In this document: piece by piece, positions 2,421 to 61,631 of the stretch | How the letters are laid out: each line of letters begins with the position of its first letter | Numbering within the stretch: position 1 is the first letter of the stretch | NCBI RefSeq assembly: GCF_016889425.1 | Contig: NZ_CP069513.1 | Location: 248,001 to 312,000, forward strand | Direction of reading: 5' to 3' | DNA length: 64,000 nt | DNA from: Corynebacterium amycolatum | GTDB taxonomy: Bacteria > Actinomycetota > Actinomycetes > Mycobacteriales > Mycobacteriaceae | The notes under the pieces: model-generated | The model's database searches: none | Seen by the model: the letters and a program-made list of their open reading frames with translations, nothing else | What the model was told of the DNA's origin: nothing | Made by a program: the position numbers and the translations under genes

Positions 2421-2431
2421 GCTTTACGACG
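2421..2431 (+). repeat. GCTTTACGACG motif, copy 1
   Basis: Exact copy of the dispersed 11-mer, in the gap between the methyltransferase and FNT genes. It begins 11 bases beyond the methyltransferase stop codon and is followed by A. Confidence 0.8.
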
Positions 2432-2442
2432 ATCACAGCTCT

Positions 2443-3090
2443 CTACCCCCGTTCAAGCACTGCAACCAGGAACTGAGACTCATCCTCAAACGGACGAAGA
2501 TCCCACGTCGAATAACGCTGAATCACGGTGAGCCCCGCCTCCTGCGCAGTGGTTTCAAAATCCGCAAAGTCCCAGCCACGGCCGGCACCGAAGCCGATGA
2601 TGGCACGACCGCCCTCCGGATTCAGTGCCGCTGCGAAGGCCTGCAGTACCTTCGTGCGGTCTTCTGGCGCTACGAAGGTCAGGACATTGCCGGGGCAAAT
2701 GATGACATCGAAAGCGGATGCCGTGTCATCGTGGGGCGTGTTCTCGAGGCCGTCGTCAAGCACGTGCGCCAATTGCGCCAAATCCCCTACCAACCACGTC
2801 GCGTCCGGGAACTGGCGTTTCGCCTCATCGATGAGATAGGGGTCGACATCGACGCCCATGACTCGGTGCCCAGCCTTCGCCAGGTAACCGCCCACGCGCC
2901 CCTGTCCGCAGCCGGCATCTAGAATTCGAGCGTGGCGTGGCGCCATCGCATCCACCAGCCGCGCCTCGCCATCGATATCGCGGCCCTCGCGCACGAATCC
3001 CCGCCACCGGTTGGCGTAGCGCCGAGAATGCTGCGGATCGGCGGCAATAATTTCTTTCCAAGTGCGGTGATTGTGGGTGCCATTGCTCAT
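2443..3090 (-). CDS. Class I SAM-dependent methyltransferase
   Basis: A protein of 215 residues with the Rossmann methyltransferase motif I (ILDAGCGQGRVGGYLAKAG), the acidic end of beta-2 (VMGVDVDP) and motif post-I/IV (FDVIICPGNVLTFV). It should transfer a methyl group from S-adenosylmethionine, but the acceptor is unknown; the FDVIICPGNVL segment differs from the NPPY motif of base methylases, so a small-molecule substrate is more likely. ATG at 3090 is preferred to the in-frame starts at 3117 and 3099 because homology starts with NHRTWKEI and GGTGG lies just upstream. It is transcribed away from mgtE on the same strand, without an obvious operon link. Confidence 0.75.
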   Translation of the reverse strand: MSNGTHNHRTWKEIIAADPQHSRRYANRWRGFVREGRDIDGEARLVDAMAPRHARILDAGCGQGRVGGYLAKAGHRVMGVDVDPYLIDEAKRQFPDATWLVGDLAQLAHVLDDGLENTPHDDTASAFDVIICPGNVLTFVAPEDRTKVLQAFAAALNPEGGRAIIGFGAGRGWDFADFETTAQEAGLTVIQRYSTWDLRPFEDESQFLVAVLERG

Positions 3091-3152
3091 GGCCACCATT
3101 ATGGCGCAGCTGGACACTTTTTATGTATCGGTGCAGCTGCGCACCGTGGGGT

Positions 3153-4502
3153 CTAAATCCCCAGTACCGACTTAGCGATCAGGAAGTAGATAATCAGACC
3201 GGAGGCATCAACAAGCGTCGTAATAAACGGGTTCGCGAAGACTGCTGGGTCAATGCCGAACTTCTTACCAATCAGCGGCATGATGCCACCGACGGTTGCC
3301 GCGAGGGTACAAATACCCAGCAGCGTCAGGCCGATAACGAGGCCGATGTCCCAACCGTAGAACAATCCAGCCAATAGTAGGCCTAGAGAACCAAGCAATA
3401 GACCGAGGAACGCGCCGACCCTCACCTCTCGGAGAATGACCTTGAATATATCTCGCGGTTGGACATCCCCCAGCGCCAACGCACGCGTAATCGTAGTTGC
3501 AGCCTGGTTACCGGTATTGCCACCTGTACCAATCAGCAGCGGTACGAACACTGAGAGAACGACCATCTGAGACAGAGTCTCTTCGAAGGTTTCCAGGACT
3601 TGCACGGTCAATGTCGCACCGATTGCCAGCACGAGCAACCAGACCACACGAGAGCGAACAATCTCAAAGATTGGCGTAGCAAGGTACGGCAAGCGCAGTG
3701 GCTCAGAACCGGAAATACGAGCTTGGTCCTCGGAATCTGCTTCCTCCAGAATCCGGAGTGCGTCGTCCACCGTGAGCAGGCCGATAACACGCTGCTTGCT
3801 ATCGACGATCGGTAGAGCTAAGCGCTTACGATTGGCGCACATGCGAGCCACCTTCTCTTCGGACTCGGTGGCCTCTGCGTAGTCGGCCTTCCTCAAAATT
3901 GCCGACACATGGATATCACGGTCGGCGCGCATCAAATCACGAAGACTTACCACGCCCATCAGTCGGCGATTCCGGTTCGACACCGGCAAGGTGTAGATAG
4001 ACTCGGCATCATCCAGATGCTTGCAGACGGTCTCGAGGGCTTTCCCCACCGTCATGTCGTCGTGAAGCGATACCAGCTCCGGGCTCATACGGCGGCCAAT
4101 GGAACCGTCGGGGTAGCCGAGAACAATGTTGGTGAGCTCGCGCTCATCATCCGGCAAATCGGCCAGCAGCTTTGAAGCAACCGAGGCTGGTAGCTCATCG
4201 AGCAACTCAGCTCGGTCGTCCGGTTCCATCTCCGCAAAGACTGCGGTGACTTCAGGATCACGGAGGCTGTCGATCAGATGCGCCTGCAGCGCTGAGTCCA
4301 GCTCATCGAAGGTTTCAACCGCCGTGTCTTTCGGCAGTGTGCGGTAGAACAGCGCACGTTCCTCATGGCTGAGGCGGCGCATCTTTCGAGCGGCAGCTTT
4401 GGGCTCAACATCAGTTAAGAGCCGCGACAATGTCGCCACGTCGTGTGAGCGAAGCGCGGACTCCAGGTCTCGATCATCAATCCTGGTCACGTCAGTAGTC
4501 AC
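3153..4502 (-). CDS. mgtE: MgtE-type magnesium transporter
   Basis: A protein of 449 residues with the full MgtE architecture: an N-terminal helical domain (about 1-125, with LLADLPDDERELTNIVLGYP), two CBS domains (about 130-250, including YTLPVSNRNRRLMGVVSL and ALPIVDSKQRVIGLLT), and five C-terminal membrane helices with the pore signature PLLIGTGGNTGNQAATTI. MgtE is a Mg2+-selective channel gated by cytoplasmic Mg2+ through the N and CBS domains. A GTG start at 4502 is chosen because the protein then begins at the usual position and GAGGGGAGAA lies a few bases upstream; the upstream ATG at 4526 adds residues with no family match. The stop codon lies inside a small GGGG/CCCC hairpin (3148-3162). 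Confidence 0.92.
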   Translation of the reverse strand: MTTDVTRIDDRDLESALRSHDVATLSRLLTDVEPKAAARKMRRLSHEERALFYRTLPKDTAVETFDELDSALQAHLIDSLRDPEVTAVFAEMEPDDRAELLDELPASVASKLLADLPDDERELTNIVLGYPDGSIGRRMSPELVSLHDDMTVGKALETVCKHLDDAESIYTLPVSNRNRRLMGVVSLRDLMRADRDIHVSAILRKADYAEATESEEKVARMCANRKRLALPIVDSKQRVIGLLTVDDALRILEEADSEDQARISGSEPLRLPYLATPIFEIVRSRVVWLLVLAIGATLTVQVLETFEETLSQMVVLSVFVPLLIGTGGNTGNQAATTITRALALGDVQPRDIFKVILREVRVGAFLGLLLGSLGLLLAGLFYGWDIGLVIGLTLLGICTLAATVGGIMPLIGKKFGIDPAVFANPFITTLVDASGLIIYFLIAKSVLGI

Positions 4503-4660: not shown

Positions 4661-4700
4661 CTCGTTGTAAAGCCCTAGCTGTCTAGTTAGCCAACGGGTC

Positions 4701-6734: not shown

Positions 6735-6737
6735 GGC

Positions 6738-7016
6738 TTATCGACGTCCCTTCTTGTCATCCTTGACGTGACCCTTGAAGGTCTTGGTCGGGGCGAATTC
6801 GCCCAGCTTGTGGCCGACCATAGAGTCATCCACGAACACCGGCACGTGCTTGCGACCGTCGTGAACGGCGAAGGTGTGGCCGATGAAATCGGGGAGAATC
6901 GTGGAGCGGCGAGACCAGGTCTTGATGACCTGCTTGGTGCCCTTCTCGTTCTGTGCATCGACCTTCGCGAGGAGGTGCTCATCGACGAACGGGCCCTTCT
7001 TAAGGCTGCGTGGCAT
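6738..7016 (-). CDS. rpsS: 30S ribosomal protein S19
   Basis: A protein of 92 residues starting [19 protein letters not shown], followed by [20 protein letters not shown] and the conserved [18 protein letters not shown]19 forms part of the 30S head with S13 and contacts the A-site finger bridge. The start has a GGAGG-like site in the 14-base gap after rplB. It is in its normal operon position between rplB and rplV. Confidence 0.97.
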
Positions 7017-9853: not shown

Positions 9854-10445
9854 GCTTGTCCTCTCCTCGGTCGGCGCGCCCCAATTAAAGGGGCGTCGAC
9901 CCTGTCAATGTTTCTCGACGCCGTCAGCAACTATGGCCAGCGCCAGAAATTAAAACTGGGTTGTGCATTACTTCAAAGCGATTTCGTCTTCGATCGTCAT
10001 GGCAAATTAACTTTTGGCCATGACCCGAGCGGACGAATAACGCCTTGCACTCAAATCCCAGTGGAAAACAAGTCCCCCCTCGTGGGGCTCTTCATTTTGC
10101 CTACTGCCGCTGTTAATTTGCCATGCCACCTCCGACCCCCGCGGTCGGGCGTGTCGCCCGTTTTCTCCGTGAGGCACGATTGGGAAGAAACTTCCCTACG
10201 TGGTCATGCTCGCCTTACCATAGGCGCTAAGTCCAATTTCGTACTGGTTCCCAGCTGGGCCTGATACAACAATTGGCGCGAACGCCTTTGTTAAAGCAAC
10301 CTCCGTATTAAAGCACGACCACACTGCAAATGTAAAATCGCGATTCCAAAGTGCAACGTACATCACACCCATTACGGAACAGTCTGCTTAACGACGGCTA
10401 TTGCGCCGGTCCCATCCCGTCTAATGTCGGCTATGTACAGATACA
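9854..10445 (-). promoter_or_regulatory. S10 operon leader/promoter region with several inverted repeats
   Basis: No gene is supported here. A perfect 13-bp inverted repeat joins ATGGCAAATTAAC (9999-10011) with GTTAATTTGCCAT (10112-10124). Downstream of it on the plus strand lie CCGACC/GGTCGG (10132-10148), overlapping CGGGCG-TGT-CGCCCG (10146-10160, followed by TTTT on the plus strand), and GGGAAG-AAA-CTTCCC (10182-10196). A perfect TTGACA on the minus strand (9903-9908) has only a poorly spaced -10, so the promoter itself is not assigned. The upstream terminator of tuf shows that this operon must have its own promoter. A GCTTAACGACG copy lies at 10386. Confidence 0.5.
10386..10396 (+). repeat. 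GCTTAACGACG motif (A variant), copy 2
   Basis: The W position is A. It lies in the non-coding gap between the tuf terminator and the S10 leader and is followed by G. Confidence 0.65.
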
Positions 10446-12218: not shown

Positions 12219-14351
12219 TTAAGCGCCGGTGCGCGCTGCAATGATCTCCTCGGCCACGGAGGAAGGAACCTCAGCGTAGGAGTCGAAGATCATGGTGTAG
12301 TTAGCGCGACCCTGGGTCTTGGAACGCAGGTCACCAACGTAGCCAAACATCTCGGACAGCGGAACCAGAGCCTTAACAGCCTTGACGCCCGTACGGTCCT
12401 CCATGGAGTTAACCTGACCACGACGGGAGTTGATGTCACCGATGACCTCACCCATGTACTCTTCCGGAGTAATGACCTCAACGGCCATCATCGGCTCAAG
12501 CAGGACCGGCTTAGCCTTCTGGACAGCTTCCTTCAGAGCCTGCTGACCAGCAATCTTGAAGGCCATTTCAGAGGAGTCAACCTCGTGGTAAGCACCGTCG
12601 AGCAGGGTTGCCTGGATGTTCACCAGCGGGTAGCCAGCCAGGGTACCGTACTGCATTGCGTCCTGAATACCAGCGTCGACAGATGGAATGTATTCCTTCG
12701 GAACACGGCCACCGGTCACCTCGTTGACGAACTTGTAAGTGGTGGACTCACCCTCTTCAACCTCGTCAGTAGACGGAGCGTAAGGCTCCAGAGCAATGAT
12801 GACGCGGGCGAACTGACCCGAACCACCGGTCTGCTTCTTGTGGGTGTACTCGAACTTCTCGACCGGCTTGCGGATGGTCTCGCGGTAAGCAACCTGCGGG
12901 TTACCGATGTTTGCTTCGACCTTGAACTCGCGCTTCATGCGGTCAACCAGGACGTCAAGGTGGAGCTCGCCCATACCGCCGATAACGGTCTGGCCGGTTT
13001 CCTCATCCAGGCGAACGGTGAAGGTCGGGTCCTCTTCAGCAAGACGCTGAATAGCGGTACTCAGCTTCTCCTGGTCAGCCTTGGACTTCGGCTCAATAGC
13101 AACGGAGATAACCGGATCCGGGAAGGACATGGACTCCAGAACGATTGGAGCATCCTGTGCACACAGGGTGTCACCAGTGGTGGTGTCCTTCAGACCAATG
13201 AAGGCGTAGATGTTACCTGCCACTGCCTCGTCAACAGGGTTCTCCTTGTTGGCGTGCATCTGGAACAGCTTACCGACGCGCTCCTTCTTGTCCTTGGTGG
13301 AGTTCAGGACCTGCTGGCCCGGCTCCACGCGACCGGAGTAAACGCGGACGAAGGTCAGCTTACCGAAGAACGGGTGAGCAGCGATCTTGAATGCAAGAGC
13401 AGAGAACGGCTCATCCTTAGACGGCTTACGAACCATATCGACGTCCTCGTCGCCCATCTGGTGGCCGTGCACCTCACCGATGTCCAGCGGATTCGGCAGG
13501 AAGTCAATGACAGCGTCGAGCAGCGGCTCAACACCCTTGTTCTTGTAAGCGGTACCACAGTAGACCGGGTAGACCTCAGAGTTCAGAACCATCTTGCGGA
13601 TGGCGCCCTTAATCTCGTCCATGGTCAGCTCTTCGCCACCGAAGTACTTTTCCATGAGCTCCTCGTCGGACTCAGCGACGGTCTCAATGAGCTTCTCACG
13701 GTACTCGTTAGCCTTGTCGACCAGGTCAGCCGGAATCTCCTCGACCTGCGCAGGAGTGCCAATCTCGACCTTGCCCGGCCACATGAGGGCCTTCATCTCC
13801 AGCAGGTCAACAACGCCGTCGAAGTCATCCTCAGCGCCAATCGGCAGCTGCATAACCAACGGCTTAGCGCCCAGGCGGTCAACGATGGTGCCAACGGTGT
13901 AGTAGAAGTCAGCGCCCAGCTTGTCCATCTTGTTGACGAAGCAAATACGTGGGACATCGTACTTCTGAGCCTGACGCCAAACCTGCTCAGACTGCGGCTC
14001 GACACCTTCCTTACCGTCGAAGACTGCGACGGCACCGTCGAGCACACGCAAGGAACGCTCGACCTCAACGGTGAAGTCGACGTGACCCGGGGTATCGATG
14101 ATGTTGATCTGGTTGTCGTTCCAGAAACAGGTCACAGCAGCGGAGGTAATGGTAATACCGCGCTCCTTCTCCTGCTCCATCCAGTCGGTTGTGGACGCAC
14201 CATCGTGAGTCTCGCCGACCTTGCGGTTAATACCCGTGTAGTACAGGATGCGCTCGGTCGTAGTCGTCTTACCAGCATCGATGTGCGCCATGATGCCGAT
14301 GTTGCGGACCTTGTGGAGGTCCTTCTTAACGGGAAGTGCACCTTCAGCCAC
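12219..14351 (-). CDS. fusA: Elongation factor G
   Basis: A protein of 710 residues. Domain I has [20 protein letters not shown], the switch II element IDTPGHVDF and [10 protein letters not shown]; domain II and III follow, then domain IV ([31 protein letters not shown]) and domain V ([20 protein letters not shown]). EF-G drives ribosomal translocation and, with RRF, recycling. A GTG start at 14351 is chosen because the preceding GGGGAA is well placed and the product then has the usual length; an ATG at 14420 would add 23 residues. It belongs to the rpsL-rpsG-fusA group but is 298 bases downstream of rpsG. Confidence 0.97.
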
Positions 14352-14608: not shown

Positions 14609-14619
14609 GCTTTACGACG
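14609..14619 (+). repeat. GCTTTACGACG motif, copy 3
   Basis: Exact copy between rpsG and fusA, about 30 bases beyond the rpsG stop codon; followed by G. The rest of this 298-base gap shows no convincing terminator. Confidence 0.8.
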
Positions 14620-14649
14620 GTGACCACTCGCGGCCCCGTCGATAAGCGA

Positions 14650-15832: not shown

Positions 15833-15843
15833 CGTCGTAAAGC
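15833..15843 (-). repeat. GCTTTACGACG motif, copy 4 (left arm of an inverted pair)
   Basis: Read on the plus strand as CGTCGTAAAGCA, it is complementary over 12 bases to the copy at 15892-15903, with about 48 bases between. Confidence 0.8.
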
Positions 15844-50137: not shown

Positions 50138-52028
50138 CCCCAATCTCCGCATTGTATGCCAGCTTGTGATGCAACTGCCGACGTGTCGCACGCGTGGTCG
50201 CCACCTCGATGACGCGAATGCCGTCGACGTCGGTATCCGGGTGCAGCTGCGCGAGCAGATCTGGGAGGCGGTCAACGCGCACGTGCTCGACCCCGTAAGC
50301 CTGGCAGATGCCCTCAAAATCCACGTCCTGCGGGGTGCCGAAGATGCGCTCAAAGCTTCCCCGCAGAGCCGGGCTGCCCGCTTCCAGCGTCTCGAAAATA
50401 CCGCCACCGGCATCATTGGCCACCACGATGGTGAGGTTTTCCGGCCTCGGCTCCAGCGGCCCAATCGCTAGCGCTGCGGAGTCGTGCTGGAACGTCAGGT
50501 CCCCCATGAGCGCAATCGTCCTTGGCGGGCGGATCTCGTCGGCATGCTCGCGGTCGGACGCCAGCGCAATACCAATCGCCGTCGCCACCGTGCCGTCGAT
50601 GCCCGCGGCACCTCGTCCCGCATACGTGTTCACCCCCGGGAAAGGCAGGCCCGTGTACGACGCATCGCGCACCGGGTTCGACGCGCCTAACACCACATTG
50701 TCACCCGTGCGCAGGCTATCCGTCAGAGCCGCCGCTACATGAAATCCGGTCAGTGGCTCCTCCGCTTCAATCGACTCGGTAAGCGTCTCCCGCACGGACT
50801 TCACCGCCAATTCGCTGGCGGCCTCACAGATTTTCGTCCACTGCGGGTCCTGGTCCCCCACAGTCTGCACATGCTTTACGACGGCCCTTGCGTTCGCTGT
50901 CACATCCGGGAACTCCACTCCAAAGCCGTGGTTTTCCGCATCCGAGACAACCGTCAACTCGATATCAGGATTGGCCAGCAGCTTAGAGATTCCTCGGTGC
51001 AGCGTCGGCCTGCCGACTAATACAATCTGCTCCGGCGGAATCTGCGCAAAAGTACCCGCCGCAAGCGGGTGAACCGGGTGCGCCGGCGCATATGCATTCG
51101 GCTCAGCGATGGTTGGCAAATCCTCCAACTCTGGCAGATGCGGGGCATTCGAGCCCGCAATCACGAGTGTGCGGCGGCTGATGTCAATTGTGGCTGTGCT
51201 AGCTGCGTCGGCCGGGCTGGTAGGGGCCGAGTTGGCTGAGTGGGCTGCGATGGCAGCTGCGCCGACGTTGTTGCTGTTGGTAGGCGCAATCGTGGTCCAG
51301 GGGCCGCCGTCTGCGCGGCCCTCGGGGATGTCGGCGACGGAGTCGTCGCCAGGCACGAGCGGTTCGACAAAACGAACGTTGAGGTGGCCGGCGCCGGATG
51401 CCATGGCAGCGACGACGCGGTCGATGCGGGCACGAATCTGCGCGGCGGTGGCCTTCGTGACCGGGGCGGTGCCGTCCAGATCGAACTCGACGACGGAAGC
51501 ATCGGCGAACAGGCGGTCCTGGACGATGGTCTGGTTCGCGCCGGTGCCGCGATAATGCGCGGGGCGGTCAGCGGTCAGTGCCAGCAGCGGAATACCCGAC
51601 GCGGTGGCTTCCACCATGGCGGGAACGAGGTTCGCCACCGCCGTGCCGGACGTTGTAATTACCGGGGTCACCTTGCGGGTGCGCGAGGCCAGGCCGAGGG
51701 CGAGGAAGGCGGCGGAGCGTTCATCGATGCGCACATGGAGGCGGACCTTCGCCGCATCGGCGGCCTGGACCAGAGCGCGGGCCAGCGGGGCGGACCGGGA
51801 ACCCGGGCACACTACGGCATCGACCATGCCGAGACGCAGCAGCTCATCGACGATGAGGCCCGCTACCACTGCGGATGGGGCCGTGGGGGCTGTATGGGCT
51901 GCGGAGGTGTGGGGCGTGGCGTCGGTTGCCGAGGCTGGGGTGCCAGCATCGGTGCCGGCGGCATTGGTGATGTTGGCGCCCTGAGCGTGCGAAGTCTGGG
52001 AGGTGTCCTGGTTGTCGTTCACACTCAA
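50121..52028 (-). CDS. menD: SEPHCHC synthase MenD
   Basis: A protein of 635 residues, longer than the usual 540-570 because of a 50-residue Thr/Ala/Ser-rich N-terminal stretch and a similar insert near residue 250 (AAAIAAHSANSAPTSPADAA). ThDP enzyme motifs are present: IDERSAAFLALGLA with the catalytic Glu, VVCPGSRSAPLARAL, and GDLTFQHDSAALAIGP near residue 515. MenD joins 2-oxoglutarate-derived succinic semialdehyde to isochorismate. One dispersed motif copy (50873) lies inside it. It follows menC by 176 bases. Confidence 0.92.
   Translation of the reverse strand: MSVNDNQDTSQTSHAQGANITNAAGTDAGTPASATDATPHTSAAHTAPTAPSAVVAGLIVDELLRLGMVDAVVCPGSRSAPLARALVQAADAAKVRLHVRIDERSAAFLALGLASRTRKVTPVITTSGTAVANLVPAMVEATASGIPLLALTADRPAHYRGTGANQTIVQDRLFADASVVEFDLDGTAPVTKATAAQIRARIDRVVAAMASGAGHLNVRFVEPLVPGDDSVADIPEGRADGGPWTTIAPTNSNNVGAAAIAAHSANSAPTSPADAASTATIDISRRTLVIAGSNAPHLPELEDLPTIAEPNAYAPAHPVHPLAAGTFAQIPPEQIVLVGRPTLHRGISKLLANPDIELTVVSDAENHGFGVEFPDVTANARAVVKHVQTVGDQDPQWTKICEAASELAVKSVRETLTESIEAEEPLTGFHVAAALTDSLRTGDNVVLGASNPVRDASYTGLPFPGVNTYAGRGAAGIDGTVATAIGIALASDREHADEIRPPRTIALMGDLTFQHDSAALAIGPLEPRPENLTIVVANDAGGGIFETLEAGSPALRGSFERIFGTPQDVDFEGICQAYGVEHVRVDRLPDLLAQLHPDTDVDGIRVIEVATTRATRRQLHHKLAYNAEIGVLDKH
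50873..50883 (+). repeat. GCTTTACGACG motif, copy 12
   Basis: Exact copy inside menD; followed by G. Confidence 0.75.
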
Positions 52029-52203: not shown

Positions 52204-53220
52204 CTACAGGTGCACATACGCCGCGCGGAGACGGTCGAACCACCAATCGCGGCGGGGACCCGGCGCGGCGAGCTCGGCCAGGCGGGAAGGGTCGGGCGCG
52301 GGGTTGGTGACGGGCAGACGGCCATCGATAAGTGGCCGGGGCTCGATGACGTCCTCAATAAACAGCGACGACGTGGCCAAACCCGCCGCGTTTGGCTCCG
52401 GCTGCAGCTCGGTGGCAGGCAGGGCCGCCGCCGTGAACAATCCCGCGGCCATGCCAACACCGGTGTCCAAGGCGCTGGCGACGGTCACCTTTATCGCCAG
52501 CTCCTCGGCCAACCGAAGCAAACGGCGTGGCCCGCCAAGCGGTGCGACCTTCATTACGCCCACGTCCGCCGCCTGTTCGCGCGCAACCAAATACGGATCC
52601 TCGGCCTTGCGAATCGACTCATCGGCAGCAATCGGGCAAAACTCCCCCACTGCGTCGCGGACCTCGCGAAGCTCGGCGACAGTCGCAACTGGCTGCTCCA
52701 TATATTCCAGCGGGCCCAACTCATGGGCGGCGCGGATGGCCTGCTCCACCGACCAGCCACGATTCGCATCCACCCGCACCACAGGTTCATAGCCATAGGC
52801 TTCGGCCACTGAGGTGCGGACGGCGGCTACGCGCTCGATGTCGTCGTTAAGCGATTGGCCGCTCTCTGCGACCTTGACCTTGAACGTGCGACACCTGGGG
52901 TAACGCCCCACGACCTCCGGCACCTGCTCGGGCGTGACGGCGGGGATGGTGGCGTTGACCTCGACAAACTCGCGCTTCGGGGTGGGCAGGCCAACGTATG
53001 CGCATTCGATGGCCGAGCGCAGCCACGCGGCAGCTTCGGGCGCCTCGTACTCCAGGAAGGGCGCGAACTCGCCCCAGGTGGCGGGGCCGTCGATGAGGAG
53101 TGCCTCGCGGGTGGTGACGCCGCGGAATTTCACCGCCATGGGTAGCGCCACGACGTGGGCGCGGTCGAGAATGCCATCGATTGGCGGAAACTGGATGTTG
53201 GGCGCAGCGGACACAGACAT
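52204..53220 (-). CDS. menC: o-Succinylbenzoate synthase MenC
   Basis: A protein of 338 residues of the enolase superfamily: TFKVKVAESGQSLNDDIERV with the catalytic Lys, VVRVDANRGWSVEQAI with the metal Asp, and CPIAADESIRKAED, VMKVAPLGG. It dehydrates SHCHC to o-succinylbenzoate. ATG at 53220 has GAGGGG upstream; the open frame runs on to 53346 inside the opposite gene's leader. It is divergent from menB with only about 34 bases between start codons. Confidence 0.9.
   Translation of the reverse strand: MSVSAAPNIQFPPIDGILDRAHVVALPMAVKFRGVTTREALLIDGPATWGEFAPFLEYEAPEAAAWLRSAIECAYVGLPTPKREFVEVNATIPAVTPEQVPEVVGRYPRCRTFKVKVAESGQSLNDDIERVAAVRTSVAEAYGYEPVVRVDANRGWSVEQAIRAAHELGPLEYMEQPVATVAELREVRDAVGEFCPIAADESIRKAEDPYLVAREQAADVGVMKVAPLGGPRRLLRLAEELAIKVTVASALDTGVGMAAGLFTAAALPATELQPEPNAAGLATSSLFIEDVIEPRPLIDGRLPVTNPAPDPSRLAELAAPGPRRDWWFDRLRAAYVHL
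52842..52852 (-). repeat. GCTTAACGACG motif (A variant), copy 13
   Basis: Read as CGTCGTTAAGC on the plus strand, inside menC; the next base in motif orientation is A. Confidence 0.6.
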
Positions 53221-54269: not shown

Positions 54270-55190
54270 AACCTTCGTAACCTCAAACCGCTGCTCCGGG
54301 TTGACGTAGGCCTCCTGCGCACGAACGAGCTCCAGCTCGCCAGAGCCGGACTCGTGCGTGACCTTCAGCAGTTCAAAGATGCTGGCCGCTGTGTTGCCCA
54401 GTGCGACCGAAAGGTCACCGTCAATACCGCGACCACGCAGCAGGTTACCCGCGAACAGCGCGGCCGTGACATCACCGGAACCGTTGCGCTTCAGCGGCAG
54501 GTACGGTGTCGCCACCAGCCATGCGCCCGAACCGTTGACGGCGAGCATCTCAATCTCGCCCTCCTTGCGCTCCGGACGCAGCACGCTGGTGACCAGCACG
54601 GCCTCCGGGCCCATCTCACGAGCAGCATGGGCTGCCGCAATGGTGGACTCCAGGTCGCTGACCTCGCGGCCTGTCAGGTATCCCAGCTCAAACTGGTTCG
54701 GCGTAATCACGTCTGCCACCGGCACGACCTTGTCGCGCAGCAGCGGCGGAATGTCATCCGAGACGTGGCAGCCACTCTTGGCATTTCCCATCACCGGGTC
54801 ACACGAGTAAATGGCCTTCGGGTTGCGCTCCTTGGCCAGCGCCACGGCCTCGATGATGACATCCGCAATATCGCTACCGCCCTGGTAGCCAGAGATAATC
54901 GCATCGACGTCGTCAAGCTTGCCCAGCTCATCGATACCCTTGATAACCTCGCGCACATCCGTGGCCGGAATCATCGGGCCGCGCCACTGGCCATAGCCGG
55001 TGTGGTTGGAGAAATCGACGGTGTGGACCGGCCACACTTCAAAACCTGCGCGCTGCAGCGGGAAAACGGCAGCGGAGTTACCCACATGGCCGTAGCTCAC
55101 ATGCGACTGGATGGACAGGATCGAGGGCACGCGGTTGAACTCCGCGACGGCTTCAGCTGCCTTTTCGGTAGGGGCCTGATTTTCGCTCAT
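54264..55190 (-). CDS. pdxY: Pyridoxal kinase PdxY/PdxK-like
   Basis: A protein of 308 residues of the ribokinase fold: ILSIQSHVSYGHVGNSAAVF, LQRAGFEVWPVHTVDFSNHT, YSCDPVMGN, VITPNQFELGYLTGREV, and the anion-hole motif KRNGSGDVTAALFAGNLL with the catalytic Asp. It phosphorylates pyridoxal for the vitamin B6 salvage route. ATG at 55190 has AGAGGA upstream and is preferred to a start at 55205. Direct repeat at its stop. It converges on menB and follows the ArfB gene on the same strand by 41 bases. Confidence 0.9.
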   Translation of the reverse strand: MSENQAPTEKAAEAVAEFNRVPSILSIQSHVSYGHVGNSAAVFPLQRAGFEVWPVHTVDFSNHTGYGQWRGPMIPATDVREVIKGIDELGKLDDVDAIISGYQGGSDIADVIIEAVALAKERNPKAIYSCDPVMGNAKSGCHVSDDIPPLLRDKVVPVADVITPNQFELGYLTGREVSDLESTIAAAHAAREMGPEAVLVTSVLRPERKEGEIEMLAVNGSGAWLVATPYLPLKRNGSGDVTAALFAGNLLRGRGIDGDLSVALGNTAASIFELLKVTHESGSGELELVRAQEAYVNPEQRFEVTKVQ

Positions 55191-55231: not shown

Positions 55232-55675
55232 CTAGTAGGAGCTGGGTCGGCGCCTGCTGGCTTTGAGCTCAGAGCGGCGTTGCTTCTGCGCTTTACGACG
55301 GGCAATCGAGGCCCGACTTGGTCGAGTCCGCCGGCGTCTCGGAGGCGGTGGCTGCACGGCTTCCCGAATGAGTTCCGCCAAGCGACGCCGGGCTTCCGCG
55401 CGGTTGCGCACTTGGGAGCGCTGGGTGGTGACGGACACTGTGAGTGTCGTGCCGTCGAGTCGGTGGCTAAGGTTCTGGAGAGCGCGGCGGCGGTGGACGT
55501 CGGAAAGCACGGTGAGCTCGGCAATATCGACCGATAGCTGCACCTTGGAGTCGGTGGTGTTAACGCCCTGACCGCCCGGTCCACCGGAGCGCGCGAAGCG
55601 TTCGGTGAGTTCCGCCGCGGGGATGACGAGGCCCTTTGGGATGCCGGGACCTGGTGGAATCTTCAGGGGTTTCAT
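55232..55675 (-). CDS. arfB: Alternative ribosome rescue factor ArfB (YaeJ-like)
   Basis: A protein of 147 residues. The catalytic loop is FARSGGPGGQGVNTTDSKVQ with the universal GGQ tripeptide, and the C-terminus is a long Arg/Lys-rich tail (PPPPRRRRTRPSRASIARRK, then basic to the end). ArfB hydrolyses peptidyl-tRNA on stalled ribosomes, its basic tail entering the empty mRNA channel. ATG at 55675 begins the known domain (MKPLKIPPG). One dispersed motif copy (55290) lies in the tail codons. Confidence 0.9.
   Translation of the reverse strand: MKPLKIPPGPGIPKGLVIPAAELTERFARSGGPGGQGVNTTDSKVQLSVDIAELTVLSDVHRRRALQNLSHRLDGTTLTVSVTTQRSQVRNRAEARRRLAELIREAVQPPPPRRRRTRPSRASIARRKAQKQRRSELKASRRRPSSY
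55290..55300 (+). repeat. GCTTTACGACG motif, copy 14
   Basis: Exact copy inside arfB in the codons of ARRKAQ; followed by G. Confidence 0.75.
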
Positions 55676-55814: not shown

Positions 55815-56597
55815 ATGGCTACTTCTGATTCCCCGTCCATTTTCATCTCCGGCGGCGCGCAGGGCATTGGCCGCGCGGTGGCCGAGAAGTTCCTGGCCGC
55901 GGGCTGGACCGTAGGCGTCTACGACATCAACGAGGATGCCCTGGCGAAGCTTAAGGCTGAGCGCCCGGAGGTAATCGTCGGCAAGCTGGACGTGACGGAC
56001 TTTAAGCAGTGGGAGGACGCGCTTGCGGACTTCACCTCCCACACCGGCGGCAAGCTGACGGTGCTGGACAATAACGCGGGCATCATCGGCGATGGCGATA
56101 TCACTGACCAGTCGCCGGAGATTATTCACGCGCAGGTGGACATCAACTGCACCGGCCTGACGCTGGGTGCGAAGGCGGCGCATCCGTACCTGAAGCGCAC
56201 CAAGGGGTCTCACCTGGTCAACATGGGTTCGGCTTCGGGTATCTACGGTCAGCCGCACATCGCGCCGTACTCTGCGTCGAAGTTCTACGTCTCGGGTCTA
56301 ACGCAAGCTCTGGATTTGGAATGGCGCAAGGACAAGATCCGCGTCGTCGCCATCATGCCGCTGTGGGCGAAGACCAAGCTGGCGGACGTTTCCGCTGGTT
56401 CGACCCGCCGTCTTGGCGTGCGCATCACGCCGGATCAGGTCGCAGATGCCGTGTGGAAGGCAACGCATCCGCAGAACTTCATTGAGCGCCAGCGGCACTT
56501 CTACTCGGTGTCGGCAGCGGACTTTATCCTGCGCTACCTGGGCAAGATTGGTCCGCAGTTCCTGTCCCGCCCGGTTAACGCAATCATCGCGGGTTAA
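55815..56597 (+). CDS. Classical short-chain dehydrogenase/reductase
   Basis: A protein of 260 residues with the SDR cofactor motif IFISGGAQGIGRAVAEKFLA, the structural NNAGI motif and the catalytic YSASK (with Ser in NMGSASGIYG). Asp in VYDINEDAL points to NAD preference. The C-terminal extension (FYSVSAADFILRYLGKIGPQ) suggests a lipophilic substrate. The substrate is unknown. The AlkB-like gene follows 16 bases later on the same strand, so the two are probably cotranscribed. Confidence 0.85.
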   Translation: MATSDSPSIFISGGAQGIGRAVAEKFLAAGWTVGVYDINEDALAKLKAERPEVIVGKLDVTDFKQWEDALADFTSHTGGKLTVLDNNAGIIGDGDITDQSPEIIHAQVDINCTGLTLGAKAAHPYLKRTKGSHLVNMGSASGIYGQPHIAPYSASKFYVSGLTQALDLEWRKDKIRVVAIMPLWAKTKLADVSAGSTRRLGVRITPDQVADAVWKATHPQNFIERQRHFYSVSAADFILRYLGKIGPQFLSRPVNAIIAG

Positions 56598-56613: not shown

Positions 56614-57294
56614 ATGCTCTTCGATCAGCTCCCGCGCGACGATGCCCGCATCACGCCGGGAGTTGTTCATCTTCCGGGGTGGCTTCCATTGGAGCGGCAG
56701 GCCGGCATCATCACGCAACTCCGCGACATCGCCCGCGACGTTGCCGGCACTCCCCTGGCCATGACTCGCCCGCAGCTCAAAAGTGGTCAGATGCAGGTCT
56801 TCATGCTGCATCTGGGGCGCATGTGGGCCACGAATCCGTACCGCTACGTCACGCACGCAGGCGGCGTTCGCGTCCCGCCTGTGCCTGACAATCTGCTGCA
56901 GCTCGCCACCGAAGCACTTCGTGCCGCCGCGCTTTACGACGAATCCCTCAGCCAGTGGCCTGCCACTTTTCGGCCCGACATGGCGTTGGTCAACTACTAC
57001 CCACCCGGGGCCACCATGGGGATGCACCAGGATCGCAACGAAAACTCCCCTGCCCCAATTGTGTCGCTCTCTATCGGTGACGAGGCCCTGTTCCGCATTG
57101 GCGGGACTGAAAACCGCAACAAACCCTGGGATGACGTGACTCTCGCCAGCGGGGATGTGATTGTGTTTGGTGGTCCCAAGCGGCTTGCGTTTCATGGTGT
57201 GCCCAAGACTCGTCCGGACACTTTGCCGGAGGGGTGCGGGCTTAAAGAGGGCCGCATCAATATCACTTTTCGGCAAGTGGAAAACTCACACTAA
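56614..57294 (+). CDS. alkB: AlkB-like 2-oxoglutarate/Fe(II) dioxygenase
   Basis: A protein of 226 residues. It has the AlkB core: MALVNYYPPGATMGMHQDRN with the HxD iron motif, FRIGGTENRNKPWDDVTLAS, FGGPKRLAFHGVPK with the distal iron His, and RINITFRQVENSH with the 2-oxoglutarate Arg. AlkB removes methyl groups from 1-methyladenine and 3-methylcytosine in DNA or RNA. The open frame extends upstream to 56413 inside the SDR gene, but ATG at 56614 begins the known domain. One dispersed motif copy (56931) lies inside it. Confidence 0.85.
   Translation: MLFDQLPRDDARITPGVVHLPGWLPLERQAGIITQLRDIARDVAGTPLAMTRPQLKSGQMQVFMLHLGRMWATNPYRYVTHAGGVRVPPVPDNLLQLATEALRAAALYDESLSQWPATFRPDMALVNYYPPGATMGMHQDRNENSPAPIVSLSIGDEALFRIGGTENRNKPWDDVTLASGDVIVFGGPKRLAFHGVPKTRPDTLPEGCGLKEGRINITFRQVENSH
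56931..56941 (+). repeat. GCTTTACGACG motif, copy 15
   Basis: Exact copy inside the alkB-like gene, in codons for AALYDE; followed by A. Confidence 0.7.
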
Positions 57295-57327: not shown

Positions 57328-58581
57328 ATGCAGCGCACCATTGCTCCTACACCCGCGCAGTCTGCCACCGCGCAGACTCCTGCCCCACTCGACTGGCACA
57401 GCCGGGTGCGTTACTTCGTCGGCTCGTTCCCAGCTGCCGATCTCGCTATTGCGGCTGCTTTCCTGCTGTGCTGTTGGTTGAGCACGACGCCGCTATTTAC
57501 TTATGGCCCGAGCTTCACTTATGTCACCAATCTGGTTCTGTCCGCGATGATTGCCGGCGCCGCAGCGTTTCGTCGTAAAGCAGTGCGCGCATCGTTTGTG
57601 GTTACATACAGTGCCCTAGCGGGCCTCGCCTTGCTGGTGTGGCTATCCCCGGTGAACCTTGGGGTAGACCCTATTATTGTTGCCGCCCCATTATCGTTAT
57701 GGGCTGTGACCAGGTGGGAACAGAATCGCACCTGGGGCATAGTTGGGCTCTTTTTAGGGTTGATTGGCAGTTTCCTCAACCCAGCGGTTCCAGCCTTCGG
57801 TTTTACTCCGGAACGGCTGTTGGTCTTCGGTCTGCCCGCGGTGCTCATCACGGCGAGCGCGTACGCAGTGCCGCTGTGGCTGCGCATCAACGCCGAGGAA
57901 CATGCCGCGGAGTTGGAGAACGTCGTGGCGCTCAACAAGTTGGAGTTGTCCCGGGAGCTTCACGATGTCGTGGGTCACGGACTCACCTCTATTAAAGTTC
58001 AGGCCCAAACCGCACTGTACCTGGCGGAGATGAATGACTCACGAGCGGAACGCGCTGCTGAAAAGACCACGCTGGAAGGTATTGCCGAGACCGCAGAACA
58101 ATCGTTGCGAGATGTGCATGCGCTTGTCGATGCACTACGTGAAGGCGGCGAGATTAGCGCTGACCCGAATGAGATTCCACGTCTGGTTGCGGCTGTTTGT
58201 CCGCCGGGTCGCGATGTTTCGGTGACTCTGCCGGAGTCTTATGAGGCGCTGGCGGATTGGCCACTCGCGAAGCGTTTGACTCTGGTGCGGGCAGTGACGG
58301 AGTTGGCCGCGAATATGGCCAAGCACTCATCGGGCGCTGGTCAGTTCACGTTGACGATTGAATCGCCTACTGAGTCGCCTATTGCCCCATCTGCCGATGC
58401 CGATATCAGCCCGGCGCGGGTTCATTTGGTGACCGCAAATCGGGCTGTGAGCGACGCCTTGGCACACAGGAAGCGAGCTGGTGCTGGCCTGATTGGTCTG
58501 GATGAACGCGTGGCGCAGCTCGGTGGCGAGATGACTTATGGTGAAAGCGACGGTATGTTCCGCGTCAGCATTCAGCTATAA
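57328..58581 (+). CDS. NarL-type sensor histidine kinase
   Basis: A protein of 417 residues. The N-terminal half has about five hydrophobic helices and almost no extracellular loops, typical of intramembrane-sensing kinases. The HisKA_3 phosphorylation box is SRELHDVVGHGLTSIKVQAQ with the phospho-His in ELHDVVGH, and the ATP-binding domain has ELAANMAKHS and GAGLIGLDERVAQLGGEM. The next gene is its likely response regulator, followed by an ABC exporter; such groups usually answer to cell-envelope stress or peptide antibiotics. A dispersed motif copy lies at 57571. Confidence 0.88.
   Translation: MQRTIAPTPAQSATAQTPAPLDWHSRVRYFVGSFPAADLAIAAAFLLCCWLSTTPLFTYGPSFTYVTNLVLSAMIAGAAAFRRKAVRASFVVTYSALAGLALLVWLSPVNLGVDPIIVAAPLSLWAVTRWEQNRTWGIVGLFLGLIGSFLNPAVPAFGFTPERLLVFGLPAVLITASAYAVPLWLRINAEEHAAELENVVALNKLELSRELHDVVGHGLTSIKVQAQTALYLAEMNDSRAERAAEKTTLEGIAETAEQSLRDVHALVDALREGGEISADPNEIPRLVAAVCPPGRDVSVTLPESYEALADWPLAKRLTLVRAVTELAANMAKHSSGAGQFTLTIESPTESPIAPSADADISPARVHLVTANRAVSDALAHRKRAGAGLIGLDERVAQLGGEMTYGESDGMFRVSIQL
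57571..57581 (-). repeat. GCTTTACGACG motif, copy 16
   Basis: Read as CGTCGTAAAGC on the plus strand, inside the histidine kinase gene; the next base in motif orientation is A. Confidence 0.7.
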
Positions 58582-58633: not shown

Positions 58634-59341
58634 ATGGGTGTAATTCGAGTTTTAGTCGCTGAAGATCAAGCGCTGATTCGGCAGTCTTTTGCGCAGCTTA
58701 TTGATGCCCACCCGCAGATGAAAGTCATTGGCGCCGTGGGCGACGGTGCTGAGGCTGTGCGTCTTGCCTCCGGCGCAGATGTGGTCGTCATGGACATTCG
58801 TATGCCAGTGATGGACGGTATCGAGGCCACGCGGCAAATCGTGCGAGGGGCATCGTCCGGAGGCGCGACCCACGCATCCGCTCCGAAAGTCCTGGTACTG
58901 ACCACCTTCCGCGAAGAATCCCTCGTACTTGGCGCTTTAGAGGCTGGAGCCGCAGGCTTTTTACTCAAAGACTCCGATCCCCGTGAGTTACTTTCGGCCA
59001 TCATGCGTATCCACCGCGGTGAAGGAGTCATCGATCCGAAGGTGACGCCAATGGTGTTGCGACACGTTTCACCGCGCACAACCCACTTCGAGCAGTCAGC
59101 AAGCGCTTCCTCGACACATGGCGATGGCTCAGACCCCACTGACGCAGAAACCCAGTTCACACCCCGAGAACAGGAGATTTTGGACCTCGTCTGCCAGGGG
59201 CTTTCCAATGATGAGATCGCTCGCAGGTTGGTGGTCGCCACGACGACCGTGAAAACCCATGTGAAAGCGCTACTAACAAAAACGGGCTCACGCAGTCGCG
59301 TGAATCTTGTCATTTGGGCTGCGAAAAACGGGATGCTTTAG
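58634..59341 (+). CDS. NarL/LuxR-family response regulator
   Basis: A protein of 235 residues. The receiver domain has acidic residues in VAEDQALIRQ, the phospho-acceptor Asp in VVVMDIRMPVMDGIEATRQI, a Thr in LTTFREES and Lys in FLLKDSDPRELLSAI. The C-terminal LuxR-type HTH is FTPREQEILDLVCQGLSNDE with VVATTTVKTHVKALLTKTG. A Ser/Thr/Asp-rich linker (about 140-165) joins them. It lies 52 bases after the kinase and should control the ABC genes and perhaps itself. Confidence 0.9.
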   Translation: MGVIRVLVAEDQALIRQSFAQLIDAHPQMKVIGAVGDGAEAVRLASGADVVVMDIRMPVMDGIEATRQIVRGASSGGATHASAPKVLVLTTFREESLVLGALEAGAAGFLLKDSDPRELLSAIMRIHRGEGVIDPKVTPMVLRHVSPRTTHFEQSASASSTHGDGSDPTDAETQFTPREQEILDLVCQGLSNDEIARRLVVATTTVKTHVKALLTKTGSRSRVNLVIWAAKNGML

Positions 59342-59457
59342 ATTCTCCTCGCTGGTGCCGTCACCCTCGCTAGCGCCTCCTCCCTGGGGAGGATATTTCC
59401 ACCAACTCATCCTCAGGGAGGGCGCGAACCGCTCCAAGCACTCCTATTACTTAAGGC

Positions 59458-60201
59458 ATGAACGCACCAACTCCTACCCCAGGCCCTTCCGCAGATGCCG
59501 CTGCTCCTCTCCTCCAACTGCGCGACATCACCGTCGCCTACGGCAAGAACGAACCGGTCCTGAACGGTCTCGACATGAGCGTTCGCGCCGGTGAGGTCTA
59601 CGGACTATTGGGACTCAACGGCGCAGGTAAGTCCACGCTGATGAGTACTGTGCTTGGCCTTGTTCCCTACTCCGGTGAAATCAGTATTGCGGGACGCCCG
59701 TGGTCCATTGCCGACCTAGACCACATCGGCGCCTCTATCAATGGCCCGGCGTTCTACCCGCAACTCTCGGCCACCGACAACCTCAAAGTGCACGCACACT
59801 TGACCGGCACGGACAGGAGCCGTATCGCCGAAGTCCTCAACTTGGTCGGGCTTCATGCTGGTAACAAGCGTGTCCGCGCTTTCTCAACGGGCATGAAGGT
59901 TCGTCTCTCACTGGCGATGGCGCTGCTCACCGACCCCGACATTGTGCTTCTCGACGAACCCACTAACGGCCTCGACCCCGAAGCTATCGTGAGCCTGCGT
60001 ACCTTGTTGCGGAATCTCGCCGATAGCGGCAAAGCAGTTGTGGTGTCTTCGCATCAGCTCGGTGAGGTCGAAAAGAGTGTTGACCACCTGGGAGTTCTCG
60101 CTGGTGGCCGGCTGGTCTACGAAGGCCCGCTGACGGACTTTGCGGCTGCTGGTCAATCCCTCGAGCAGGCTTTCTTTGCCGCAGTAGGTGTTGCCCGATG
60201 A
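59458..60201 (+). CDS. ABC transporter ATP-binding protein
   Basis: A protein of 247 residues of the drug/lantibiotic-export type: Walker A GLNGAGKST, signature AFSTGMKVRLSLAMALL, Walker B PDIVLLDEPTNGLDPEAIV and the switch His in VVSSHQLGEVEKS. The signature motif has STGMK rather than the usual SGGQ, as in the BcrA/CcmA-like group. It pairs with the permease that overlaps its end by four bases. The substrate may be a peptide antibiotic, by analogy with LanF/BcrA pumps next to TCS genes. Confidence 0.9.
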   Translation: MNAPTPTPGPSADAAAPLLQLRDITVAYGKNEPVLNGLDMSVRAGEVYGLLGLNGAGKSTLMSTVLGLVPYSGEISIAGRPWSIADLDHIGASINGPAFYPQLSATDNLKVHAHLTGTDRSRIAEVLNLVGLHAGNKRVRAFSTGMKVRLSLAMALLTDPDIVLLDEPTNGLDPEAIVSLRTLLRNLADSGKAVVVSSHQLGEVEKSVDHLGVLAGGRLVYEGPLTDFAAAGQSLEQAFFAAVGVAR

Positions 60202-61631
60202 GCGCTCAACCGCACACACGCACTTTTAACACGCGCGCTGTTCCTACGCGACACTACTTCCGCGCCGAACTACTGCGGGCGAAGTGGTCGCTCACCATGT
60301 TCCTGCCCATCATCATGGTGGCAATCGCTCTGGTCAGCATGGTCTTTTCTACAGGCGTTGATGCCACCGCCATGGCGAGCGCCCACATCTACTCGCTTAT
60401 CCTGCTCCCTCCCCTGGCTGCTATTACGTCCGTCATTGGCCAAAAACGTGAAGAAAAGCTCCGCCAAGGTGGCCTAATCTGGCGCAATATTTCGAGCATT
60501 CGGGTACTCCTGGCACGCGCAGCCACTGTCATCGCCTCCACGGCCCTCGGCCACGCACTGATGGCCACTCTCCTTGCCCGGAGCGTGAGCACCGCATTGC
60601 AATTCACGATCTTCAACACGTTGTCATTCTTCGTGTTCTGGGCATTCGGCCTTGCCCTATGGCGCCTTGTGCCACGCGCAGCTCTCTTCCTTGCTCCGCT
60701 CGCTGCCATCGCTTGGGCCATCGCAGGAACACTGGATGCCATGAGCCCAAACTGGCAAGTTCTCCCGTGGACCTGGGCAATCCGCCCAACGTTACCTATC
60801 CACGGAGTGCAGGCTAATTCCATCACGGCTCCCGCAGACAGCGAAATCTGGGACATTGCCATCCTGCCGCCCGCGCTGCTGCATTTACTCCTCGGGCTAG
60901 GCTTCTTTGTCATCGCATTGGCTGCGCACGGAAAATCTCTCAGCTTGCCGACGGGCCGGGAACGCAGCACTTCGTCGTTAAGCCATGGCATGAGCGCGAC
61001 CCTGCCCTGGCGCACCTGGTGGAGCCTCGCAGCGCTGATGCTTGCCGGGCTTGCGGTCGTGCGTGTGGTGTGGAACCCGGAGTATGCGATGGGGTTGCTG
61101 AGTTTCGTCTGCGTGCCGACGGCCGCAACCGTGGTCGCCATCATGACGTGGACCTCGCAAGCTGATGCCTGGCCAGCGCTGATGTATCGACGCTCGCGGG
61201 GGAGCATCACGCTCCGGCTGTTTGCCTTGGATATGGCGTTTCTCGTACCGGTGCTCGTGGTTGCGGTGATTATCAGTGGCGCGGGCGGCGAAGCCAGCAG
61301 CGAGACCGACATCAACCCTTGGCCGTACCAGGCGGTCATCGCGCCTCTTGTGGCCGCAATGATTGTGGCCGTGACCGGATTGATTGCGCGTCGAAGTGTG
61401 GCAGCGGCGATTTTTGCCTCGGTCGCGCTCGGCGGTTGGGCGGTGCTGGTTGGCGGTGATGTCCTCAGTGCTTCACCGCTGTGGTGGACCTCGGAATGGG
61501 GATGGACCTGGGTGGTCCGTGATTACCCCGAGCGGTGGCCGTTGATGGTTCTCGTATCCACCATTGTGACCGGGGCATTCGTGGCCTGGGCGCGGGCAAC
61601 GTCGCTGAAAGCCATCCGATTCCTGAGCTGA
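60198..61631 (+). CDS. ABC-2-type permease
   Basis: A protein of 477 residues with some 11-12 hydrophobic segments; it is long enough to act as a complete membrane half on its own or as a homodimer. It starts MSAQPHTRTFNTRAVPTRHY and contains a first cytoplasmic coupling region near IGQKREEKLRQGGLIWRNI. No named substrate motif is recognised. The start codon overlaps the stop of the ATP-binding gene by four bases. A dispersed motif copy (60973) lies inside it. Confidence 0.82.
   Translation: MSAQPHTRTFNTRAVPTRHYFRAELLRAKWSLTMFLPIIMVAIALVSMVFSTGVDATAMASAHIYSLILLPPLAAITSVIGQKREEKLRQGGLIWRNISSIRVLLARAATVIASTALGHALMATLLARSVSTALQFTIFNTLSFFVFWAFGLALWRLVPRAALFLAPLAAIAWAIAGTLDAMSPNWQVLPWTWAIRPTLPIHGVQANSITAPADSEIWDIAILPPALLHLLLGLGFFVIALAAHGKSLSLPTGRERSTSSLSHGMSATLPWRTWWSLAALMLAGLAVVRVVWNPEYAMGLLSFVCVPTAATVVAIMTWTSQADAWPALMYRRSRGSITLRLFALDMAFLVPVLVVAVIISGAGGEASSETDINPWPYQAVIAPLVAAMIVAVTGLIARRSVAAAIFASVALGGWAVLVGGDVLSASPLWWTSEWGWTWVVRDYPERWPLMVLVSTIVTGAFVAWARATSLKAIRFLS
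60973..60983 (-). repeat. GCTTAACGACG motif (A variant), copy 17
   Basis: Read as CGTCGTTAAGC on the plus strand, inside the ABC permease gene; the next base in motif orientation is A. Confidence 0.6.

Follow-up and report, generated by a model that had tools for sequence, protein, structure and literature searches.

A spaced nine-base DNA word abundant across the genus Corynebacterium is a probable DNA uptake sequence with one-base dialects

The 64-kb stretch of Corynebacterium amycolatum analysed here (positions 248001-312000 of one 2,474,943-base contig, called the window in its full length) carries 47 copies of the spaced word GCTT-NN-CGACG (GCTTNNCGACG) on both strands, within and between its genes. 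A first-pass annotation of the letters alone had picked out 17 copies of the 11-mer GCTTWACGACG (W is A or T) and had likened it to the DNA uptake sequences of Neisseria and Pasteurellaceae or to a genome-wide marker for a DNA-binding or DNA-modifying protein. Every coordinate and strand in that list is right, and shuffled sequences are expected to hold 0.09 copies, with 1 as the largest number obtained. The 11-mer is over-represented as described but is only a fragment, the W-A subset of GCTTNNCGACG. We regard it as good as certain that GCTTNNCGACG is real, is specific to the genus and is kept as a DNA word by sequence-specific pressure, and the comparisons described below argue that it probably serves as a DNA uptake sequence of corynebacteria.

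The abundance extends far beyond the window. A genome-wide count near chance had been named as the outcome that would undo the observation; the whole genome holds 1,539 copies (737 on the plus and 802 on the minus strand) against 68 for the reversed pattern, and the whole contig has 277 copies of the W-A form against 5 for its reversed pattern. For motif statistics, we combined the window with 40 evenly spaced 20-kb stretches into a sample of 864 kb (41 stretches), to which the counts in this and the next three paragraphs refer. Because all 16 fillings of positions 5 and 6 are present, with 3 to 114 copies each (most commonly GC with 114, GA with 111 and TA with 73), the motif is GCTTNNCGACG and the 11-mer a subset of it. 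The sample contains 550 motif copies compared to 4-28 for seven reversed, swapped or altered control patterns. The 2-base gap is rigid, as gap lengths of 0, 1 and 3-8 yield 11-28 copies each, and the 9 fixed bases are strict: 25 of their 27 one-base changes occur in at most 35 copies, and the remaining two, both at position 3, in 52 and 99. Among the 3,000 commonest 11-mers of the sample, the top three by score are all forms of the motif.

The intergenic copies (n = 89), which are not constrained by codons, show the preferences around the core. The preceding base is C or T in 83 of them, position 6 is A in 64 and G in none, and a one-sided 3′ tail of about 18 bases is C-rich with a weak GCG, giving (C/T)GCTT-NN-CGACG followed by a C-rich 3′ tail as the form of the motif in this genome. 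Sequence similarity among copies is limited to the core and this weak tail. A purine does follow 16 of the 17 copies first noticed in the window, but this regularity fades to 72 of 111 copies of the W-A form in the sample.

Genes were called with our own simple caller, which found 728 genes in the sample (83% coding, approximately 17% non-coding). By these calls, 90 copies (16%) are intergenic, 6 lie at gene edges and 454 within genes. Nine of the 17 copies first noticed had been described as clearly non-coding; 11 are intergenic by our calls. The six copies that had been placed 1-40 bases behind a stop codon (2421, 14609, 15893, 33162, 37091 and 47555) are indeed there, at 11, 30, 39, 6, 1 and 5 bases, respectively. 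The description "often just behind genes" holds for the W-A form, with 42 of 111 copies intergenic compared to 48 of 439 other copies (p = 5e-10), but not over all copies, and a preference for intergenic sites or gene ends was therefore rejected as the main rule. Inside genes, 268 copies share one sense frame, xxG-CTT-NNC-GAC-Gxx, which reads Leu(CTT)-Xaa(NNC)-Asp(GAC). Codon usage alone predicts 7.7 such encodings, 35 times fewer than observed; of 842 Leu-X-Asp places eligible for the motif encoding, 268 use it, and the motif accounts for 11.5% of the CTT codons. This usage indicates that the pressure is on the DNA word and not on the protein. Because the free bases of the motif are the first two of the NNC codon, the W-A form stands out between genes.

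Each of the 41 stretches has 0.3-1.0 copies per kb, and the motif is not confined to one part of the chromosome. Copies occur about once per 1.6 kb, and the gaps between them are more even than random (coefficient of variation 0.80), as both short gaps (under 200 bases, 8.4% versus 12.8%) and very long gaps (over 4,800 bases, 7 versus about 19) are rarer than expected. No replication-strand bias was found when the leading strand was assigned by GC skew for each stretch (277 versus 273 copies). The two inverted pairs that had been pointed out, 15833/15893 and 37091/37110, are present and fold as hairpins (energies in Table 1, computed with 5 bases on each side), and the window holds three further inverted pairs, starting at 14609, 25993 and 60943. 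Of the 23 pairs whose members are no more than 120 bp apart, 16 are inverted (p = 0.09), which makes pairing a weak feature; close pairs are also rarer than random, and we rejected inverted pairs as a functional unit. No U-run was found at the five hairpins examined in the window. The hairpins at 15833-15903 and 37091-37120 lie near gene ends and may still affect transcript ends.

Table 1. Copies of GCTTNNCGACG in the window (positions count from its first base)
Copy	Position	Strand	Context
GCTTTACGACG	2421..2431	+	intergenic
GCTTGACGACG	2751..2761	-	in gene
GCTTCACGACG	4058..4068	-	in gene
GCTTATCGACG	6736..6746	+	at gene edge
GCTTAACGACG	10386..10396	+	intergenic by our gene caller
GCTTACCGACG	13268..13278	+	in gene
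GCTTTACGACG	14609..14619	+	intergenic; inverted to 14637
GCTTATCGACG	14637..14647	-	intergenic; inverted to 14609
GCTTTACGACG	15833..15843	-	hairpin arm with 15893, -30.4 kcal/mol
GCTTTACGACG	15893..15903	+	hairpin arm with 15833
GCTTCTCGACG	17153..17163	-	in gene
GCTTTTCGACG	20580..20590	-	in gene
GCTTGACGACG	23169..23179	+	in gene
GCTTGCCGACG	25804..25814	-	in gene
GCTTGCCGACG	25993..26003	-	in gene; inverted to 26032
GCTTGACGACG	26032..26042	+	in gene; inverted to 25993
GCTTGTCGACG	27717..27727	+	in gene
GCTTATCGACG	28115..28125	+	in gene
GCTTGACGACG	28514..28524	-	in gene
GCTTACCGACG	29310..29320	-	in gene
GCTTGTCGACG	30888..30898	+	in gene
GCTTAACGACG	33162..33172	-	intergenic, 6 bases past stop
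GCTTGTCGACG	36046..36056	+	in gene
GCTTTACGACG	37091..37101	-	hairpin arm with 37110, -21.5 kcal/mol
GCTTTACGACG	37110..37120	+	hairpin arm with 37091; gene end
GCTTGCCGACG	39807..39817	-	in gene
GCTTTACGACG	40406..40416	+	intergenic
GCTTATCGACG	40709..40719	-	in gene
GCTTTACGACG	41906..41916	+	intergenic
GCTTGTCGACG	45187..45197	-	in gene
GCTTGACGACG	46430..46440	+	in gene
GCTTACCGACG	46775..46785	-	in gene
GCTTTACGACG	47555..47565	+	intergenic, 5 bases past stop
GCTTTCCGACG	49531..49541	-	in gene
GCTTTACGACG	50873..50883	+	in gene
GCTTAACGACG	52842..52852	-	in gene
GCTTGACGACG	54908..54918	-	in gene
GCTTTACGACG	55290..55300	+	intergenic
GCTTTCCGACG	55498..55508	-	intergenic
GCTTGCCGACG	55976..55986	-	in gene
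GCTTTACGACG	56931..56941	+	in gene
GCTTTACGACG	57571..57581	-	in gene
GCTTCTCGACG	59946..59956	+	in gene
GCTTGCCGACG	60943..60953	+	in gene; inverted to 60973
GCTTAACGACG	60973..60983	-	in gene; inverted to 60943
GCTTTGCGACG	62779..62789	-	in gene
GCTTCACGACG	63854..63864	+	in gene

We surveyed 242 genomes of the genus, using our own thresholds of 180 copies for GCTTNNCGACG (the first dialect) and 150 for a second dialect. First-dialect counts are bimodal: 171 genomes hold 180 to 1,964 copies, none holds 150-180, 2 hold 120-150 and 69 hold fewer. Of 159 genomes from outside the genus (20 from the same family and 139 from other families in the order), none has more than 2.1 times its control count, compared to 17 times in this genome, both dialects taken together. 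The second dialect, GCTT-NN-CGATG (GCTTNNCGATG), emerged from a search for repeated words in 40 kb from each of 20 motif-poor genomes, where it was found in four (G006, G143, G151 and G236). It reaches 1,021-1,337 copies in six genomes, compared to 12 to 165 in first-dialect and motif-free genomes. Seventeen genomes have the second dialect only, four of them weakly (159-223), and 54 of the 242 have neither dialect. Among named loci, those of C. macginleyi and Corynebacterium sp. KPL1814 carry the second dialect. One genome, G079 (locus L150), carries both, with 1,337 ATG and 352 ACG copies; it is counted among the 171 and is perhaps caught in a specificity change.

The dialects follow phylogeny. 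A TadA tree covers 32 genomes of an initial 38, the sequence filter having removed 6. All 12 second-dialect rows in it (10 strong, 2 weak) fall on one branch with a support of 99/99, which also holds one first-dialect and one motif-free genome. Lineage preferences are likewise seen at positions 5, 6, 12 and 13 of the motif; at position 13, for example, the C. tuberculostearicum group has C in 95% of its copies and this genome in 48% (coding copies included). Stretches of approximately 20 kb around comEC contain 18 copies in C. pilosum, 14 in C. amycolatum, 11 each in C. tuberculostearicum and C. glaucum, 8 in C. striatum and 5 in C. flavescens (a 21-kb locus), compared to 0-2 in species such as C. 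parakroppenstedtii, C. meridianum and C. uropygiale and in the mycobacteria.

At most of the orthologous loci examined, the motif is more conserved than the sequence around it. One 20-kb locus was aligned with C. amycolatum and two other relatives, the last of them distant, which gave 9, 8 and 5 aligned sites. Identity is 81/81, 72/72 and 43/45 for the fixed bases and 654/684, 564/608 and 278/378 for the flanks, with p-values of 0.06, 0.01 and 0.0004, respectively. The dialects were compared in 200 kb each of C. tuberculostearicum FDAARGOS_993 (G005) and the second-dialect genome G006, which are 79% identical where aligned and in which 50 of 83 and 55 of 90 sites, respectively, could be aligned. 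When sites are limited to those with the remaining eight fixed bases unchanged, 23 of 29 first-dialect sites of G005 have T in G006 (5 have C and 1 has G), and 22 of 26 second-dialect sites of G006 have C in G005. The same base differs in 72 of 386 CGATG words outside the motif compared to these 22 of 26 (p = 6e-12), and in 71 of 144 CGACG words compared to 23 of 28 in the motif when the G site is left out (p = 0.0016). Identity at the dialect position is 0.36-0.38, compared to 0.69-1.00 at the other fixed positions, and some flank positions fall to 0.56. Between KPL1814 and C. tuberculostearicum SK141, nine sites align, six of them are otherwise intact, and all six are switched. The one-base dialect thus changes site by site between lineages.

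Mobile DNA is poor in the motif. Four Corynebacterium phages contain 10 copies in 171 kb, where 109 are expected at the density of this genome and 68 at 0.4 per kb, and five plasmid records contain 10 copies in 192 kb, where 122 and 77 are expected. Their density of 0.05-0.06 per kb is about tenfold lower than the 0.64 of the chromosome; the records vary in host and density, and what is compared is therefore types of DNA and not matched pairs. In the 35.9 kb examined of plasmid pTP10 of C. striatum (NC_004939.1), all 7 copies lie between 22.7 and 30.1 kb, five in a run of genes that resemble captured chromosomal ones (three of these copies in mshC) and two in the tetAB genes, and the remaining genes have none. 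The three copies on other plasmids lie in a relaxase gene, aac(3)-XI and a histidine kinase gene. The chromosomal-looking run on pTP10, a resistance plasmid, spans 22296-28162 and comprises mshC and genes for an undecaprenyl-diphosphate phosphatase and a dihydroorotate dehydrogenase.

That no competence system of the type found in Neisseria or Pasteurellaceae is known for corynebacteria, as the first-pass annotation remarked, needs a rider, because comEA, comEC, dprA and a Tad pilus locus are encoded. The genes covered were comEA, comEC, dprA, recC and, of the Tad system, those for the ATPase, the platform proteins, the CpaE/Ssd-like protein and the pilins. In this genome, comEA (with SLBB and HhH domains) is adjacent to comEC, and the Tad locus, beside a DECH helicase gene, encodes an ATPase, two T2SSF platform proteins, a DUF4244 Flp-like pilin, a TadE pilin, an Rv3654c-type TadE-like pilin and a CpaE/Ssd-like protein that scores 146 bits, slightly below the cut-off of 154. 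Between G006 and G005, identity is 68% for ComEA and 74% for the Rv3654c-type pilin, compared to 86% for TadE, 86% for TadA and 92% for Flp; the greater divergence of the first two between dialects is a lead seen in one genome pair. The Rv3654c-type pilin has two invariant cysteines in 15 aligned sequences. ComEA as the dialect reader was rejected, as the ends of 82 ComEA matches gave no clear signal by eye. Near the Tad locus (L131, 14766-15752) lies an IS481-family transposase gene that is 92% identical to an Arthrobacter plasmid copy. In the comparison of 80 named loci, the ComEC of L151 (NZ_JVVM01000026.1), labelled C. vitaeruminis, is 92% identical to that of the window genome, above the 89% of C. 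amycolatum SK46, and the label may be wrong.

Taken together, the traits found in silico are those of an uptake sequence: high copy number, presence on both strands, a favoured coding frame, dialects that follow phylogeny and switch site by site, scarcity on phages and plasmids, and competence genes in the same genome. They support the early suggestion of an uptake sequence or genome-wide marker, with pairing at gene ends as its weak part. We consider the uptake reading the best by elimination and by the traits shared with known cases. It is also probable, with slightly more reserve, that the Tad-pilus machine of Corynebacterium reads GCTT-NN-CGA(C/T)G, that this system evolved independently and has filled most genomes of the genus, and that its one-base dialects split related species, such as the C. 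macginleyi type from C. tuberculostearicum, into gene-exchange groups.

In such a system, a surface protein of the uptake machine would bind motif-bearing double-stranded DNA, the most likely candidate receptors being a minor pilin encoded in the Tad locus and a pilus-tip protein. The pilus would pull the bound DNA through the envelope, ComEA and ComEC would pass one strand into the cell, and DprA and RecA would recombine it. Because motif-bearing DNA of kin would be preferentially taken up and recombined, motif alleles would be copied more often than broken ones, and the motif would build up at every site that tolerates it, which within genes is chiefly the frame Leu(CTT)-Xaa(NNC)-Asp(GAC). 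A changed receptor preference would convert sites singly to a new dialect, and the likely effect would be preferential genetic exchange among kin of the same dialect.

Among the alternatives, the binding site of a chromosome-organising or segregation protein (a nucleoid protein, or a matS-, parS- or KOPS-like site) would fit the density and even spacing over the 41 stretches, but it is unlikely given that 54 genomes of the genus lack the motif, one of them inside the second-dialect clade, and that many sites have been rewritten to the other dialect. Strand bias of the KOPS or AIMS type is absent from these stretches, as is the trait of matS or parS, a palindrome confined to one domain, since the motif is asymmetric and is present in all 41. 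Somewhat less probable is a Chi-like recombination hotspot, a signal to an end-resecting nuclease that is common on the chromosome and rare on phages. The motif resembles Chi in being an abundant short chromosomal word, and its strictness and its scarcity on phages and plasmids would suit this role. Chi sites are strand-oriented and need RecBCD or AddAB, whereas the motif has no leading-strand orientation, its fixed 2-base gap is unlike known Chi words, and RecC (PF04257) was found in none of 24 genomes in a search that was aimed at RecC and detected the E. coli control.

If the motif were instead the target of a DNA-modifying or restriction system and marked DNA as self, chromosomes would likewise be rich and mobile elements poor in it, and the bipartite form recalls Type I sites. 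We consider this reading very improbable, as restriction sites are normally avoided and not 20-fold over-represented, the 2-base gap is not that of Type I sites, and under restriction, single sites could change dialect only with difficulty. We give almost no credence to a family of dispersed repeats, a transcription terminator or a regulator site that has simply become frequent: some copies do form hairpins after genes, but similarity ends at the core and weak tail, most copies lie within genes and 268 in one codon frame, the hairpins examined lack a U-run and close pairs are not in excess.

Several observations weigh against the motif being an uptake sequence. In 4 of 20 locus comparisons, the core is no better kept than the flanks (core versus flanks 46/64 and 483/600 for L140 with L143, 15/24 and 153/227 for L141 with L144, 30/40 and 297/370 for L183 with L159, and 35/48 and 327/453 for L141 with L142), and another fixed base is changed in 17 of 50 aligned sites of G005 and 25 of 55 of G006. 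Other chromosomal signals that build up slowly should likewise be scarce on phages and plasmids. Furthermore, no gene whose presence follows the motif was found among comEC, the Tad ATPase, the Tad pilins, comEA and dprA, and their presence or absence was rejected as the cause of motif-free species. ComEC is found in 241 of 242 genomes, motif-free ones included, the exception being a 90% complete genome with a weak second dialect (G214); the Tad ATPase is found in 80 of 80 genomes tested (47 motif-free), DprA in 24 of 24 (9 motif-free), Tad pilins, judged by eye, at 20 of 20 loci, and a ComEA match at 82 of 82 comEC loci surveyed by tblastn. No transformation or uptake experiment on these species appeared among the literature matches listed.

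In Neisseriaceae, the DNA uptake sequence (DUS) is read by the minor pilin ComP and also occurs in hairpin pairs, and the uptake signal sequence (USS) of Pasteurellaceae has T-tracts in its tail. The corynebacterial motif shares with the DUS a short exact core in many copies (180 to 1,964 per genome here, 943 to 5,918 in Neisseriaceae; PMC3630211), dialects that follow phylogeny and differ by one or a few bases, a two-dialect genome (here G079), motif-free genomes within the group and, as a weak feature, hairpin pairs; dialects, a genome with two of them and family members without one are described for known uptake sequences (PMC3630211). It differs from the DUS in its unrelated sequence, its free 2-base centre and its Gram-positive genus, and its hosts have a Tad pilus locus instead of a type IVa pilus. 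With the USS, it shares 9 fixed bases, a weaker one-sided downstream tail and a preferred reading frame, one orientation being favoured in frame among known uptake sequences (PMC2346458). Its spacing of approximately 1.6 kb compares to about one copy per 1 kb for the USS in H. influenzae (PMC7811141), and it differs from the USS in its C-rich rather than T-rich tail, its sequence and its phylum. The USS receptor is the subject of another study (PMC12616744). The closest match in machinery is Micrococcus luteus, also an actinobacterium, whose competence genes include two Tad ATPases, ComEA and ComEC (PMC6667448); corynebacteria encode machinery of the same classes, and the term "uptake sequence" does not occur in that paper.

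Sequence-specific uptake has been found in Pasteurellaceae and Neisseriaceae (PMC7811141, PMC5031613), and the accessible part of a survey of spaced motifs in prokaryotes mentions corynebacteria for clustered regularly interspaced short palindromic repeat (CRISPR) pairs only (PMC5217627). The matches listed included no report of a Corynebacterium uptake sequence, and the six listed papers that contain the exact 11-mer have no title on corynebacteria; subscription papers and preprints are thinly covered among them, and an earlier report is possible. As far as we found, this would be the first uptake tag in a Gram-positive group. It would represent a third origin, in an unrelated phylum and with another pilus type and another motif, and the evolution of uptake specificity could be compared across independent cases. 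Many corynebacteria, which are usually handled by electroporation or conjugation, would be predicted to be naturally transformable with motif-bearing DNA, and the reading would matter for the exchange of genes among corynebacteria of the skin and nose. The site-by-site change of dialect between related groups would offer a view of a specificity change in progress.

Other repeated words were also considered. A third dialect, GCTANNCGACG, one base away and prompted by 6 copies in 60 kb of one genome, was rejected: its highest count among the 242 genomes is 121 (G197, 3.2 times the control), and it has 41 copies, compared to 26 for the control, in the genome that prompted it. Among the 54 motif-free genomes, 15 were sampled for other words, plus one by 20 kb. 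G084 (L071, L072) has overlapping 10-mers around GGAGTATACCAGGG with 12 repeats in 40 kb, G014 (L073, L074) and G010 (L097, L098) have further over-represented words, spaced CGACGA repeats and CAACCCCACA, that are possibly local repeats, and other repeated words are present in G130.

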